Source: Pedobacter sp. Leaf170
GTDB taxonomy: Bacteria; Bacteroidota; Bacteroidia; Sphingobacteriales; Sphingobacteriaceae
Assembly: GCF_920984665.1 (NCBI RefSeq)
Contig: NZ_CAKLBP010000002.1
Coordinates: 310,001-374,000 of the forward strand
Length of the DNA stretch: 64,000 bases
Reading direction: 5' to 3'
The translations under genes and the position numbers were made by a program. The notes beneath the pieces are model-generated. The model was not told the DNA's origin. It made no database searches and saw only the letters and a program-made list of their open reading frames with translations. Position 1 is the first letter of the stretch, and every line of letters starts with the position of its first letter. Shown here piece after piece: positions 59,336 to 64,000 of this stretch.

Positions 59336-60097
59336 TTAAAATATTTGAAGATTTGAATCTGATTTTTTTGTTAAAACCGTATAAGCATTTGCAAATTGCT
59401 CTTGCTTTTTTCTGCCAAGAAAATTTCCCAAGGCTTTTTTAATTCGGTATTCCAGCTCAATTTTTAAATTTTTAGTAAATGTTTTTGGCGCTTTTCTATT
59501 AATAAATTCGTTAAACTTTACCGTTTCAGTTGCAGTCATCGAAACCTTATCTTCTAAAATTTCAAGTCCTTCGCTTTGCAATAAAAACCTTAATGATGTA
59601 GGCGTGTACATATTGATGTGCCCATAATCAAGGAAATGTTTCATTCGCTGGTCTACCCCGAACCGATAATCTTTCGGAACTTCAACAACAATATACTTCG
59701 AAACTCTTTTCAGCTCACGCAATAAAATCCTTTCATGCTCCACATGTTCGAGCACATGTGCGAGTATCACTAAATCGAAAGCATCATCCTCGAATGGTAT
59801 TTTGTAACCATCAAAAGTTTGAACTGATTTTAAACTGGATAAATTTCTGCTTTTTATAATATCTACACCACTTTCTGCAATTTCCAATGCATACAGCTCA
59901 GGGGCAAAACTCCATTCGTTTAAAAAATGAAGGATACTTCCATCGCCGGCACCAACCTCTAAAACTTTAGTCGGTTTTATATCTCTACAAACATCAACAA
60001 TGTTTTTTGCTTTGTATTTTGCGCCGAGCATTCGCCAGGCAACATCACTATTTGTATAAAAATTATCGTATGCCGTTTTTACTTCTTCGCTGAGCAT
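59336..60097 (-). CDS. Class I SAM-dependent methyltransferase
   Basis: The 253 residues have the SAM-binding motif PTKVLEVGAGDGSILHFLNE (about 37-56), FDLVILAHVLEHVEHERILL and YIVVEVPKDYRFGVDQRMKH. The pattern fits methyltransferase-11-type enzymes seen in glycan clusters. It lies 10 bases downstream of the next methyltransferase gene (60108-60755) and before the GT2 gene; the whole set is minus-strand. Confidence 0.86.
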   Translation of the reverse strand: MLSEEVKTAYDNFYTNSDVAWRMLGAKYKAKNIVDVCRDIKPTKVLEVGAGDGSILHFLNEWSFAPELYALEIAESGVDIIKSRNLSSLKSVQTFDGYKIPFEDDAFDLVILAHVLEHVEHERILLRELKRVSKYIVVEVPKDYRFGVDQRMKHFLDYGHINMYTPTSLRFLLQSEGLEILEDKVSMTATETVKFNEFINRKAPKTFTKNLKIELEYRIKKALGNFLGRKKQEQFANAYTVLTKKSDSNLQIF

Positions 60098-60107
60098 GCT
60101 GTAATGA

Positions 60108-60755
60108 TTAAATGCCTAAGCAGTTATCTGCTTTATAAAAAACTGAAGTTGCTTTTTCGTAAAATAAGCCTGGAGAAATTCCGCTGAAACTGATTTCTTT
60201 AAAGCCCTTTTCTTTCAATAAAACACGTGCAGGATTGTAAACTTCTCGTTCACTATCATCCAATACAATTACACCATTGGCAGATAAAGCATCCAAACTG
60301 TAAGCGCAACACCTAACTCTATCTCTTCCATCAACAATAATAATTTCGAATTTCCTGTTAAGTAATGCCGCTTTTTTAGCATATTCACCATCCCGTTGCA
60401 ACTCACAATAAATCATTTCTGCATTTGCTGGACTGGTGTTTTTTACCTTTTCGAACCAGTTTTTATCATGTTCTACCGATGTAACCGAACCTGCTCTTTC
60501 TGCATAAAAAATTGTCGAGTTTCCAGAGCCATACTCAAAAATGTGTTGGGTTTTGTTAATTCTTTCTTTTATAAAATCGATAAAAGAATATGTAACCCAA
60601 GGCAGCGCTTTGCCCTGCCCATCAACCGCCTGTTTGTTGTCGAACGCGGTAAACCAGCCAATGCTATTTAGATATCCTTTATGCCCGTATGATAATAATG
60701 CTTTTAACCTTGATGGTTTAGCAATTAGTGTGCTTAATGCTTTTAATGTACTCAA
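60108..60755 (-). CDS. Small class I SAM-dependent methyltransferase
   Basis: 215 residues counted from a TTG at 60755: the codon series TTG AGT ACA overlaps the flippase stop TGA (TTGA), the usual coupling geometry. The longer frame (to 60920) would run through the end of the flippase gene. Conserved parts: TQHIFEYGSGNSTIFYAERA (SAM site), VTSVEHDKNWFEKVKN, EIIIVDGRDRVRCCAYSLDA, and VIVLDDSEREVYNPARVLL. Similar small enzymes act on surface sugars or lipids. Confidence 0.78.
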   Translation of the reverse strand: MSTLKALSTLIAKPSRLKALLSYGHKGYLNSIGWFTAFDNKQAVDGQGKALPWVTYSFIDFIKERINKTQHIFEYGSGNSTIFYAERAGSVTSVEHDKNWFEKVKNTSPANAEMIYCELQRDGEYAKKAALLNRKFEIIIVDGRDRVRCCAYSLDALSANGVIVLDDSEREVYNPARVLLKEKGFKEISFSGISPGLFYEKATSVFYKADNCLGI

Positions 60756-62071
60756 CGTTTTAATATTTTTTGAAATGCAGTTATCAAAAATAATGATTTT
60801 AACATCATTATGCCTTGTTGGCGAGTTTTTGGAATTAATAATAAATAAAAAGTTGAAACAAAACACGCAATGAGCGTTGCTAATGATGCTCCCACTCCGG
60901 CATATAATGGAATTAACCACAAATTTAGTCCAACATTAATTACTGCTCCGGCAGCCGTTCTGTAAAATGAAATTTTTGTAAAGCCTTCTGCAACTAAATA
61001 TTGCGAACTGGCTGTACCTAAAAATACAAAAATGCCTGACCAGATATGTATGGATAACATTGGTCCGGCTCCATCATATTTACCTTGATAAATAATATGG
61101 ATAATATCAGAACCAAAGAAACTTATAAAAAGTGCCACAGGAAGGCTGATGAAGACCAGCAAATCGTATAAATTGCCTAAACGCTTTTGATAGCGGTCTA
61201 AATCTGTTTTCCTGGCATTTAATAATGCGGGGAATACGGAAGTAACAATTGCAACGGGAATAAAATACCAGGCTTCACTCAAATTTTGAGCGGCACTGTA
61301 AATACCTACTGCTTTACTGCCAATACTTTTTAGCATAACAACATCAATTTTCATGTAAATTGAAACCATTACAGCTGATAAAATTAATGGCGAAGATTTC
61401 TGTAAAAGGAATTTTGCTCTTTGTTTATTAAAGGTCCAATCGAAAATATTAAATCCCCGTTTCTGAAAAATAAGGATTAAACCAATTGCCAGAATTAACC
61501 CATCAAAAACATAAGCTAATACAATATAAATGAGCGGCAGATTTAATGTGATAAGAATTATTTTTACAACAGAAGTAACGATTAAACAGATATTTTGAAC
61601 CTGCACTACATATTTCGATTGTACCTGAGACTGAAAATATGCATCAATTACATTAAAAGATTTAAAGAAGGAGGCGAGTGCAAGTAGGCCGACTAAAAGT
61701 GTAAGTGGTTCGCCCGGCTTTGTTGAAAGATGATGACTGAATAAGTAAATGCCTACTGCTACAGGAATCAGCAGTGCATTTGCAACCATTCTGAGCCATA
61801 ACGATGTGCCTAATATTTCGTTGCGTTTCTCTGGTTCTTGAATAATTTCGCGGATGATAAATGTATCTAAACCTAAGGCACCAACCGCAGCTAAAATAGC
61901 AACCAGAGATAAGCCAAAGTTTAAATCTCCAAATAAAATGGGACCAAGGTAACGGGCAATTAAAAGGTTTACAATAAGGCTTAATCCTTTGCCAAACATA
62001 ACCCAACCAGCATTTTTTAAATACTTGTTAAAAGCCTCTTCATCAAAACCTTTTATGGCGGGTAATTTCAT
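60752..62071 (-). CDS. Flippase, polysaccharide biosynthesis type (Wzx-like)
   Basis: The 439-residue protein is very hydrophobic with about 12-14 membrane helices: GWVMFGKGLSLIVNLLIARY, LNFGLSLVAILAAVGALGLD, TFIIREIIQEPEKRNEILGT, SSPLILSAVMVSIYMKIDVV and GVGASLATLIACFVSTFYLL. The pattern fits MOP-superfamily O-antigen flippases, which move lipid-linked glycans to the periplasm. It is the first gene of a minus-strand set with two methyltransferases and a glycosyltransferase downstream. Confidence 0.88.
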   Translation of the reverse strand: MKLPAIKGFDEEAFNKYLKNAGWVMFGKGLSLIVNLLIARYLGPILFGDLNFGLSLVAILAAVGALGLDTFIIREIIQEPEKRNEILGTSLWLRMVANALLIPVAVGIYLFSHHLSTKPGEPLTLLVGLLALASFFKSFNVIDAYFQSQVQSKYVVQVQNICLIVTSVVKIILITLNLPLIYIVLAYVFDGLILAIGLILIFQKRGFNIFDWTFNKQRAKFLLQKSSPLILSAVMVSIYMKIDVVMLKSIGSKAVGIYSAAQNLSEAWYFIPVAIVTSVFPALLNARKTDLDRYQKRLGNLYDLLVFISLPVALFISFFGSDIIHIIYQGKYDGAGPMLSIHIWSGIFVFLGTASSQYLVAEGFTKISFYRTAAGAVINVGLNLWLIPLYAGVGASLATLIACFVSTFYLLLIPKTRQQGIMMLKSLFLITAFQKILKR

Positions 62072-62104
62072 CAGCGCAAAGATGTAAAAAATTGCATTAG
62101 CTTT

Positions 62105-62626
62105 TTAAGTTAATGGAGCGCCAACTGCAATATCGCACCTATGTCCATCTTTTCCATGTTCTGGATTGAGTTTTATCTTGCTGCTTGCTTCTGTTGTTTT
62201 ATTTACTGATTTGTTTAAAGCAACTGGCTTTGCTACTGGCTTAGAATCTAAAGGCGCACCCACCGCAATATCGCATCGATGGCTCGGCTGACCATGAGCC
62301 GGATTCAGGTTTTTTGCCGATGTTTTTACGATTGGAGGCTCGGCTTTTGCTTTAATCTCTTGCTTTACAATTTGTTGAGCTTGTGGGGTAGATGCAGCCT
62401 GGTTTAAAGGAGCACCAACCGCTAATTCGCATCTATGTCCGGGTTTACCATGCTCAGGATTAAAGATTAAATTACTCTTTACGGATTGATTTACCGGCTG
62501 CGCTGGAGCGCTATTTTGCAAGCCCTGCATACCTGTTGGAGTGGCTATAACAACTTGCGTTGAAGATTTTTTATTATTACAGGCAAAAAATATCAAGGTA
62601 ATAAATAAGTACGATGATTTTTTCAT
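62105..62626 (-). CDS. Lipoprotein with three HG..HRC repeats, unknown function
   Basis: The 173-residue protein has a lipoprotein signal (FITLIFFACNN, lipobox-like before Cys 16) and three copies of a motif of about 18 residues: NPEHGKPGHRCELAVGAPL (about 57-75), NPAHGQPSHRCDIAVGAPL (about 108-126) and NPEHGKDGHRCDIAVGAPL (about 154-172). Each copy keeps two His and a Cys. Spacers are low-complexity (A, P, Q, K). I recognise the motif as one recurring in uncharacterised Bacteroidetes lipoproteins, but I cannot name a function; metal binding is a guess. It ends a minus-strand set with yjjG-like and DinB-like genes. Confidence 0.85.
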   Translation of the reverse strand: MKKSSYLFITLIFFACNNKKSSTQVVIATPTGMQGLQNSAPAQPVNQSVKSNLIFNPEHGKPGHRCELAVGAPLNQAASTPQAQQIVKQEIKAKAEPPIVKTSAKNLNPAHGQPSHRCDIAVGAPLDSKPVAKPVALNKSVNKTTEASSKIKLNPEHGKDGHRCDIAVGAPLT

Positions 62627-62652
62627 AAGCAGTTCTTATTTAATGATGGTAA

Positions 62653-63177
62653 TTATGTTCTTTGCAGATAGCTTTCTTCAATTCTAATTAACTGCTTTAA
62701 ATGATGCTTTAAGTGGATTTCTATAAACCTTAACCATTGCTTTGAGTTTAAATACCCTAACCTTGGATGCTTGGTTTTTGAACGATTAGAAGCTTTTGCA
62801 ATTTGTGTATAAACATTTTCTAAGGTTTTTTCAAATTCTAAAATAAAATCCAAGGCTTCAGTTTTACTGATTTTTTTTACCCTGCTCGCAAGTCTTTTTG
62901 GTACTTCATATTTTTTTGCAGGCGGCAGAGCGCCAAATAGCAGTATTAGTTTTACAATAAAATGGGTGGGTTTATCTTCACCTTTACCATTTGCTGCGTT
63001 TTCAAGAGCAATGGTAGAAAGTATGCTCGAATCGAAAATGTGGCAATAAACTTCGCTAAAACTCCAGCCATTTATGGGTGGTGTTGTTTCAAAAATCTCA
63101 TCAGTATAAGAAGAAAGTTTTGCTTTATAAGCTTCCACAATGTGATGGATTGAAACTCTTATTTTGGCTGCAGTCAT
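62653..63177 (-). CDS. DinB-like metal-dependent protein
   Basis: The 174 residues form four-helix-bundle-like sequence with the DinB/YfiT metal His candidates: His 47 in YCHIFDSS and His residues in EIHLKHHLKQLIRIE (about 153-167). Members are thiol transferases or stress proteins, often of unknown role. It lies 21 bases after the yjjG-like gene and 26 bases before the lipoprotein gene on the same strand. Confidence 0.8.
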   Translation of the reverse strand: MTAAKIRVSIHHIVEAYKAKLSSYTDEIFETTPPINGWSFSEVYCHIFDSSILSTIALENAANGKGEDKPTHFIVKLILLFGALPPAKKYEVPKRLASRVKKISKTEALDFILEFEKTLENVYTQIAKASNRSKTKHPRLGYLNSKQWLRFIEIHLKHHLKQLIRIEESYLQRT

Positions 63178-63198
63178 TCTTAAAGCTACTAAATACTA

Positions 63199-63894
63199 TT
63201 AAAATAACTGCAAAAGTTCCTCAAGATGAACAATTTCCTTTTTCACATCTTCAGGCTTTTCTTTCTTTAACGGATTAAAAAATATGGCATCCATACCAAA
63301 ATTTAATGCACCGTAAATATCTGCCTCCAAACTGTCTCCAATCATAATGCTTTCTGCTTTAAGTGCTTTTGCTTTATCTAATGCATATTCAAAAATTACC
63401 GGATTTGGCTTGTTCACACCAACATCTTCAGAAATAATTACGTTCGAGAAATATGGATTAAGTGCTGAAAAATCCATTTTTGTAAGTGTAGTTTCTTTAA
63501 AACCATTTGAAATGATGTGTAAAGTATATTTCTGCTGCAAATAGCTTAAAACATTCTCTGCACCTTCAAATAAATTCGTTTTCGTTGGAGAAATGCATAC
63601 GTAATCGTCTTCAAACTGATGTGGAACGGCATCCGGATGGATACCCAATTCCAAAAATGTTTTGCTAAACCGCTCTGCCCGAAGAAAGTCTTTAGTGATT
63701 TTTCCGAGGTGATAATCTGCCCAGAGCTTATGGTTGTTCTCTGTATATTTTGAAATAAAATCCGAACATGATTTTAAGCCCAATTCATCAAGCTTATATT
63801 TTTTATATAGCTCTTGAAGCGTTTCTTCTGCATTTCTGTCGAAATCCCAAATCGTGTGGTCAAGGTCAAAGAATATGTGTTTTTTGTTTTTCAA
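63199..63894 (-). CDS. YjjG family noncanonical pyrimidine nucleotidase (HAD superfamily)
   Basis: HAD-family phosphatase that dephosphorylates noncanonical nucleoside monophosphates. The 231 residues show all HAD motifs: HIFFDLDHTIWDFDRNAEET (DxD motif I, about 6-25), HIISNG (motif II), the lysine in DVGVNKPNP (motif III), and MIGDSLEADIYGALNFGMDA (motif IV). Length and text fit YjjG. First gene of a short minus-strand set. Confidence 0.93.
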   Translation of the reverse strand: MKNKKHIFFDLDHTIWDFDRNAEETLQELYKKYKLDELGLKSCSDFISKYTENNHKLWADYHLGKITKDFLRAERFSKTFLELGIHPDAVPHQFEDDYVCISPTKTNLFEGAENVLSYLQQKYTLHIISNGFKETTLTKMDFSALNPYFSNVIISEDVGVNKPNPVIFEYALDKAKALKAESIMIGDSLEADIYGALNFGMDAIFFNPLKKEKPEDVKKEIVHLEELLQLF

Positions 63895-64000
63895 GATGTT
63901 TTGTTATTGGGATGGTTAGAATTAGTGAAGTAGAAAGGGTTGAAAGTTTGAATATTGGAAAGTTATATCCTGCTAATCCTAAAAATCCTGATCACACTTT
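63895..64000. other. Window end without a gene
   Basis: About 106 bases upstream of the yjjG-like gene. The final part (63967-63996) has the short irregular repeat aatcctaaaaatcctga, which may be the start of a repeat tract continuing past the window. No coding frame is supported. Confidence 0.5.

Follow-up and report, generated by a model that had tools for sequence, protein, structure and literature searches.

The locus analysed here raises the question of what function may be served by a small envelope protein of Pedobacter sp. Leaf170 that carries three almost identical repeats. The window, that is, the whole stretch of 64,000 nucleotides of genomic DNA that was analysed, encodes this protein on the minus strand in an open reading frame of 173 amino acids plus stop codon. 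A preliminary description of the DNA had claimed a lipoprotein with three repeats, each containing two His and one Cys. The open reading frame was confirmed at exactly 62105–62626 (−), and the His and Cys residues were found in all three copies. The protein starts with MKKSSYLFITLIFFAC, directly followed by NNKK, and this N terminus comprises a signal peptide with a lipobox-like Cys16 (FFAC; 62579–62626, minus strand). Three repeats of 22 residues with the consensus xxNPxHGxPGHRCDIAVGAPLx follow, joined by low-complexity linkers. Repeat 1, IFNPEHGKPGHRCELAVGAPLN (62402–62467), repeat 2, NLNPAHGQPSHRCDIAVGAPLD (62246–62311), and repeat 3, KLNPEHGKDGHRCDIAVGAPLT (62108–62173), which has the stop codon directly after it, were assigned by sequence and motif profile; all three lie on the minus strand. 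A genome search revealed a single copy of the gene in the window's genome. The DNA of the three repeats has diverged to 68–73% identity, and third codon positions are 33–52% identical, although the protein remained nearly invariant. Consequently, the repeats result neither from a recent duplication nor from an assembly artefact. Furthermore, repeats of the same index were closer between species than repeats of different index (0.87 versus 0.675 in Pedobacter). The repeats within the window protein are old.

The distribution of the protein was determined by searches of different scope. A contig scan of 84,980 species (one genome each), queried with six peptides from the window protein, a set that would not reach divergent copies outside Bacteroidota, returned 22 loci. 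Grouped by record title, all of them belong to Bacteroidota, including Pedobacter, Chitinophagaceae, Flavobacterium, Chryseobacterium, Kaistella, Vaginella, Taibaiella, Dyadobacter and others. A motif profile (A1; 22 columns, 32 rows) was then applied to whole-genome samples. It detected the motif in 31 of 395 genomes of a phylum sample, in 44 of 201 genomes of the window's own family, in 45 of 120 genomes of Weeksellaceae (family f19, a label that includes named Chryseobacterium and Kaistella genomes) and in 14 of 147 genomes of a Chitinophagaceae-like family (f18), which was so named on shared gene contexts. With the single protein as query, matches were obtained in 12 of 41 relatives; in G004 the match was confined to the N terminus. 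The motif is not restricted to one species, a finding that would have counted against the preliminary description, but is present in several Bacteroidota families. Each genome holds one repeat gene with 2–4 repeats, all copies being located at one place. The gene is usually a single reading frame of about 100–290 residues, a frame break was observed in some genomes (e.g., G864 and G343), and the match tables showed no additional domain fused to it.

Searches of the repeat protein against Pfam, NCBIfam, PADLOC and PDB sequences gave nothing exceeding chance. The PADLOC anti-phage models yielded 0 families, a plasmid collection gave no match, and none of 11 pattern matches on viral contigs was confirmed. 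The sole match among the PDB sequences, a C2H2 finger with HGERGHRC, was rejected at a chance-level E value of 3.7. Rfam showed no match over window positions 60000–64000. A sigma-70 promoter scan gave nothing better than shuffled sequences; promoters of Bacteroidota are different from this type. A literature search on the motif letters found no paper, subscription journals being mostly outside its coverage. The repeat protein represents a widespread family of environmental Bacteroidota without a model in the searched libraries.

The constraint on the motif was analysed in a census of 274 copies from 108 distinct proteins, of which 52 contain two, 54 three and 2 four copies. The copies were located with a profile built from family members, which strongly decayed copies could escape. 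The gene-neighbourhood table excludes 4 duplicates and 6 loci at which no motif ORF begins with ATG; five of these six re-entered the motif census and the linker composition, and the sixth (L092) is a remnant. Residues N3, P4, H6, G7 and H11 were invariant in 274 of 274 copies. The same was true for C13 and G18 in all 273 copies extending that far, L078 holding one shortened copy. Of the near-invariance claimed at the outset H-x-C held without exception, but the Arg of HRC is variable and occurs in 222 of 274 copies, with D, N, T, K and S as alternatives. The linkers after the anchor Cys comprised 11,775 residues with 0 Cys, 5 His and 1 Trp. In 24 disjoint pairs of close relatives dN/dS was 0.023 for the motifs, 0.172 for the linkers and 0.229 for the signal region, the linker value exceeding that of the motifs 7-fold. 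The invariant ligand-type residues, this low dN/dS and the confinement of Cys and His to the motif thus support well the early proposal of the motif itself as the unit of function. Judging from this conservation H-x4-H-x-C likely represents its ligand set.

Conservation also extends to N3, P4, G7, V17, G18, P20 and L21, which are as conserved as the ligands or nearly so. Such a pattern would be expected if each copy were a docking peptide for the same pocket in a conserved partner protein of the periplasm or outer membrane, with the string as a multivalent scaffold. The low-complexity linkers and the 2–4 copies would suit avidity. We consider this unlikely, and it is likewise doubtful that His and Cys contact such a partner and not a metal: a conserved Cys that recurs in each copy but is absent from the linkers would be unusual for a docking peptide, and no partner gene is linked to the repeat gene across lineages except the metal unit described below. 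An AlphaFold2 model of the window protein (21 sequences) had a mean pLDDT of 64.6 and a pTM of 0.24, with block means of ~78–88 across most of the motifs and 43–55 across the linkers. It provided loop-like local order alone, which would also agree with docking. Single bridge residues 18 apart (55/73, 107/125 and 153/171) suggest that each motif may close into a small loop, a weak indication from a model that is poor overall. A Foldseek search of the model against the PDB gave zero matches.

A Cys precedes the first motif in 106 of the 108 relatives examined, and most family members are predicted to be lipoproteins. Among the loci of the window's own family 11 of 29 were without a Cys ahead of the first motif; ten of these carry a hydrophobic helix at the N terminus, and in the remaining one (L270) the frame is cut. 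The repeat protein of L065 carries a plain signal peptide and that of L080 a membrane helix. A lipobox Cys after a signal peptide is present in the window protein but not family-wide. The proposed exposure at the envelope was retained only in the sense that the protein is tethered on the outer side of the inner membrane, since many relatives carry a membrane helix in place of the lipobox and the signal peptide of one is of the plain type. The conserved trait is this tether and not the anchor lipid. In a genus of Sphingobacteriaceae (g20) the membrane-helix form was observed by eye beside a small putative regulator and/or an MFS-type transporter in constant order (L246, L249, L251, L254, L266–L269 and L272).

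Near-identical cores with variable spacers between them are also a feature of precursors from which cleavage releases multiple copies of a single modified peptide, either RiPP-like or for signalling. For the repeat protein such a role is highly improbable. The protein is membrane-anchored, its cores are the same across families without diversification, and neither a maturation enzyme nor a peptide transporter was noticed by eye and clustering in the listed loci.

In the window the repeat gene is part of a tight gene run on the minus strand that is common to other Pedobacter. It is located between the gene of a DinB_2 family protein upstream (62653–63177; PF12867, 1.6e-07), at a distance of 26 nt, and that of a polysaccharide flippase downstream (60752–62071; PF01943, 5.8e-22), at a distance of 33 nt. 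The same run contains a YjjG-family HAD nucleotidase (63199–63894; TIGR02254, 1.1e-66). In seven relatives without the repeat gene DinB directly adjoins the flippase. Moreover, at this gene position the Pedobacter relative G004 has kept the signal peptide and the first linker, including a TPTGLQGLQK stretch, and lost all repeats (L092, G004:C49, about 315847–315975). Because of these seven relatives and this remnant the repeat gene is regarded as an optional insert in the Pedobacter run. A direct functional tie to its Pedobacter neighbours was dropped for this reason.

The DinB-superfamily gene found at position −1 in Pedobacter (window 62653–63177) was observed at +1 in five Chitinophagaceae-type loci (e.g., L004, 6711–7217) and at +2 in L197. 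The DinB superfamily includes thiol-S-transferases, and DinB-superfamily neighbours in three contexts would be compatible with a thiol or redox site, in which neighbouring His and Arg would activate the Cys for the removal of oxidants or electrophiles or for mixed-disulfide formation. The invariant Cys with a His close by in all copies would fit as well. Nevertheless, this function is quite improbable: it accounts neither for the first of the invariant His residues nor for the N-P/G scaffold, and no thioredoxin-like or sulfoxide-reductase partner was found beside the gene across lineages by eye and clustering. The families being large, the DinB adjacency is possibly due to chance. The DinB profile was seeded with these adjoining genes, so that its absence at distant positions is biased.

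A different gene context was observed in Weeksellaceae. Forty-five loci were fetched, and at 41 of them the gene was called from an ATG start. Four named loci that were identical or overlapped had been merged, and L014, L015 and L017 represent three genomes. A TonB receptor gene was present near the repeat gene on the same strand in 32 of the 41 ATG-start loci, within three genes at 31 loci and at a distance of five genes in L163. The receptor was immediately upstream on the same strand in four loci with a non-ATG start (L079, L157, L172 and L178). Altogether, the repeat gene lies beside or at most five genes from a receptor with a conserved Cys-Cys plug in 36 of 45 genomes. The receptor link is missing in 9 of 45 loci (L017, L151, L158, L162, L165, L167, L169, L173 and L175), and in 9 of 45 Weeksellaceae genomes no metal gene adjoins the repeat gene. 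At the linked loci the Weeksellaceae receptor is mostly fused to heavy-metal-associated (HMA) domains; for L014 Pfam identified HMA (PF00403) and the TonB barrel (PF00593). Most receptor-linked loci also encode a small secreted protein rich in Cys and His, and the two of these examined (L014 and L073) matched no NCBIfam model. The gaps flanking the repeat gene are often about 20–100 nt.

The gene orders were placed on a receptor tree of 37 rows, for which the intended outgroup loci L220 and L222 yielded no row. The repeat gene is first in 22 rows and last in 13 rows. Three changes of gene order are needed on this tree, and well-supported branches force at least 2. The order has changed, yet the linkage was kept, and the repeat gene is therefore probably tied functionally to the receptor unit.

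The plug of the receptor (AACCNLSESFETN...) occurs phylum-wide, in 104 of 395 genomes. In the phylum sample the receptor was present in 26 of 31 genomes with the repeat gene versus 78 of 364 others, a comparison confounded by descent. In Weeksellaceae it was found in 109 of 120 genomes, among them all 45 with the repeat gene. The corresponding Fisher p values for co-occurrence, 3.5e-12 (phylum) and 0.0066 (Weeksellaceae), ignore kinship and are not to be relied on. Twenty receptor loci outside Weeksellaceae, inspected by eye, usually contain small Cys-rich and secreted HMA proteins. Four of four small Cys-rich proteins tested from such loci matched HYC_CC_PP (NF047658), and single neighbours matched HMA, HMBD and HMA-MauE. 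Since HYC_CC_PP, HMA, HMBD and HMA-MauE genes accompany the receptor, its locus is considered a metal locus. The metal is presumably copper, judging from the HMA/CopZ-type relatives; HMA domains also serve metals other than copper. A literature search on HYC_CC_PP found no paper. Along L208–L227 the combination of HYC_CC_PP, Cys-Cys-plug receptor and secreted HMA was observed phylum-wide, with an HMA-receptor fusion in some families.

In the window's genome the Cys-Cys receptor was not found at E 1e-20. This genome has five HMA matches, and a locus with HYC_CC_PP, secreted HMA, DUF3347 and HMA-MauE proteins (G000:C2:209000–219000) is located ~156 kb from the repeat gene. At this metal locus an apparent fusion of a metal-binding-like N terminus (MVCNRCK) to an AraC-type helix-turn-helix was noted by eye (L243, 4195–4755), and a reading frame in L225 (2918–3484) resembles it. 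No metal gene adjoins the repeat gene at the examined Pedobacter loci, and local profiles revealed no adjoining HMA or receptor gene at the Flavobacterium and most Chitinophagaceae-like loci. Because the repeat gene is unlinked to metal genes there, we infer metal and partner for Pedobacter, Flavobacterium and most Chitinophagaceae. In L065 the gene of a CopZ-like HMA protein of 74 residues lies tail-to-tail with the repeat gene at a distance of 19 nt; this adjacency, one case in 25 loci, could be due to chance.

Several known systems resemble the repeat protein in part. HMA domain proteins (PF00403) and chaperones of the CopZ/MerP type likely share with it a trade in metals at the envelope, and their genes are linked in Weeksellaceae. 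They differ by a folded domain of about 65 residues with CxxC, whereas the repeat protein has one Cys per motif; PF00403 gave no match in the window protein. HYC_CC_PP, which is encoded at the receptor loci, is likewise small, secreted and equipped with Cys and His, but lacks repeats. NF047658 matched neither the window protein at E≤1 nor the repeat proteins of L014 and L065 at E≤0.01. Zinc-finger-like and metallothionein-like peptides share short His/Cys sites on an otherwise unstructured chain, and the repeat protein differs from them by a single Cys per site. A further system is that of the OprC-type copper TonB receptors, discussed for the flavobacterium Bizionia argentinensis, for which copper entry across the outer membrane has been proposed; the accessible part of that article mentions no repeat lipoprotein (PMC11213822).

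Overall, we favour a role of the repeat protein as a tethered periplasmic buffer or relay for a metal, probably copper, and give this reading an even chance. It is favoured because of the ligand set, the linkers nearly free of Cys and His, and the gene clusters of Weeksellaceae. The HMA/TonB-receptor operons of this family provide indirect support for metal binding by the motif. We infer such binding, the choice of copper over zinc or other metals, and the buffering or relay role from these genomic data. The protein would be a flexible periplasmic string that is tethered to the membrane and binds metal at multiple sites. His6, His11 and Cys13 of each 22-residue motif would serve as metal ligands positioned by the invariant Asn-Pro, Gly7 and Gly18, and the linkers rich in Thr, Ala, Pro and Ser would merely space the sites. 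Such a string would buffer a soft or borderline metal reaching the periplasm, most probably copper, and then hand it on. In Weeksellaceae it would work with the co-encoded TonB receptor, the HMA domains and the Cys/His-rich protein; in Pedobacter possible partner genes would be located elsewhere in the genome. More tentatively, the family might represent an undescribed class of envelope carrier, in which a tethered string of identical H-x4-H-x-C sites takes copper that enters via the Cys-Cys-plug receptor, or by another route where this receptor is missing, and hands it on without a folded chaperone domain. In this reading the bead stays constant, whereas its copy number and the kind of anchor (lipid, membrane helix or none) differ.

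With the metal-binding proposal a protein without a family model, present in many Bacteroidota, gains a testable hypothesis, for which the 22-residue peptide is the minimal experiment. If the motif indeed binds copper, the poorly known copper biology of Bacteroidota would gain a short metal site of a new type together with a layout like beads on a string. Such a result would also help to assign a function to the phylum-wide locus of the Cys-Cys TonB receptor.
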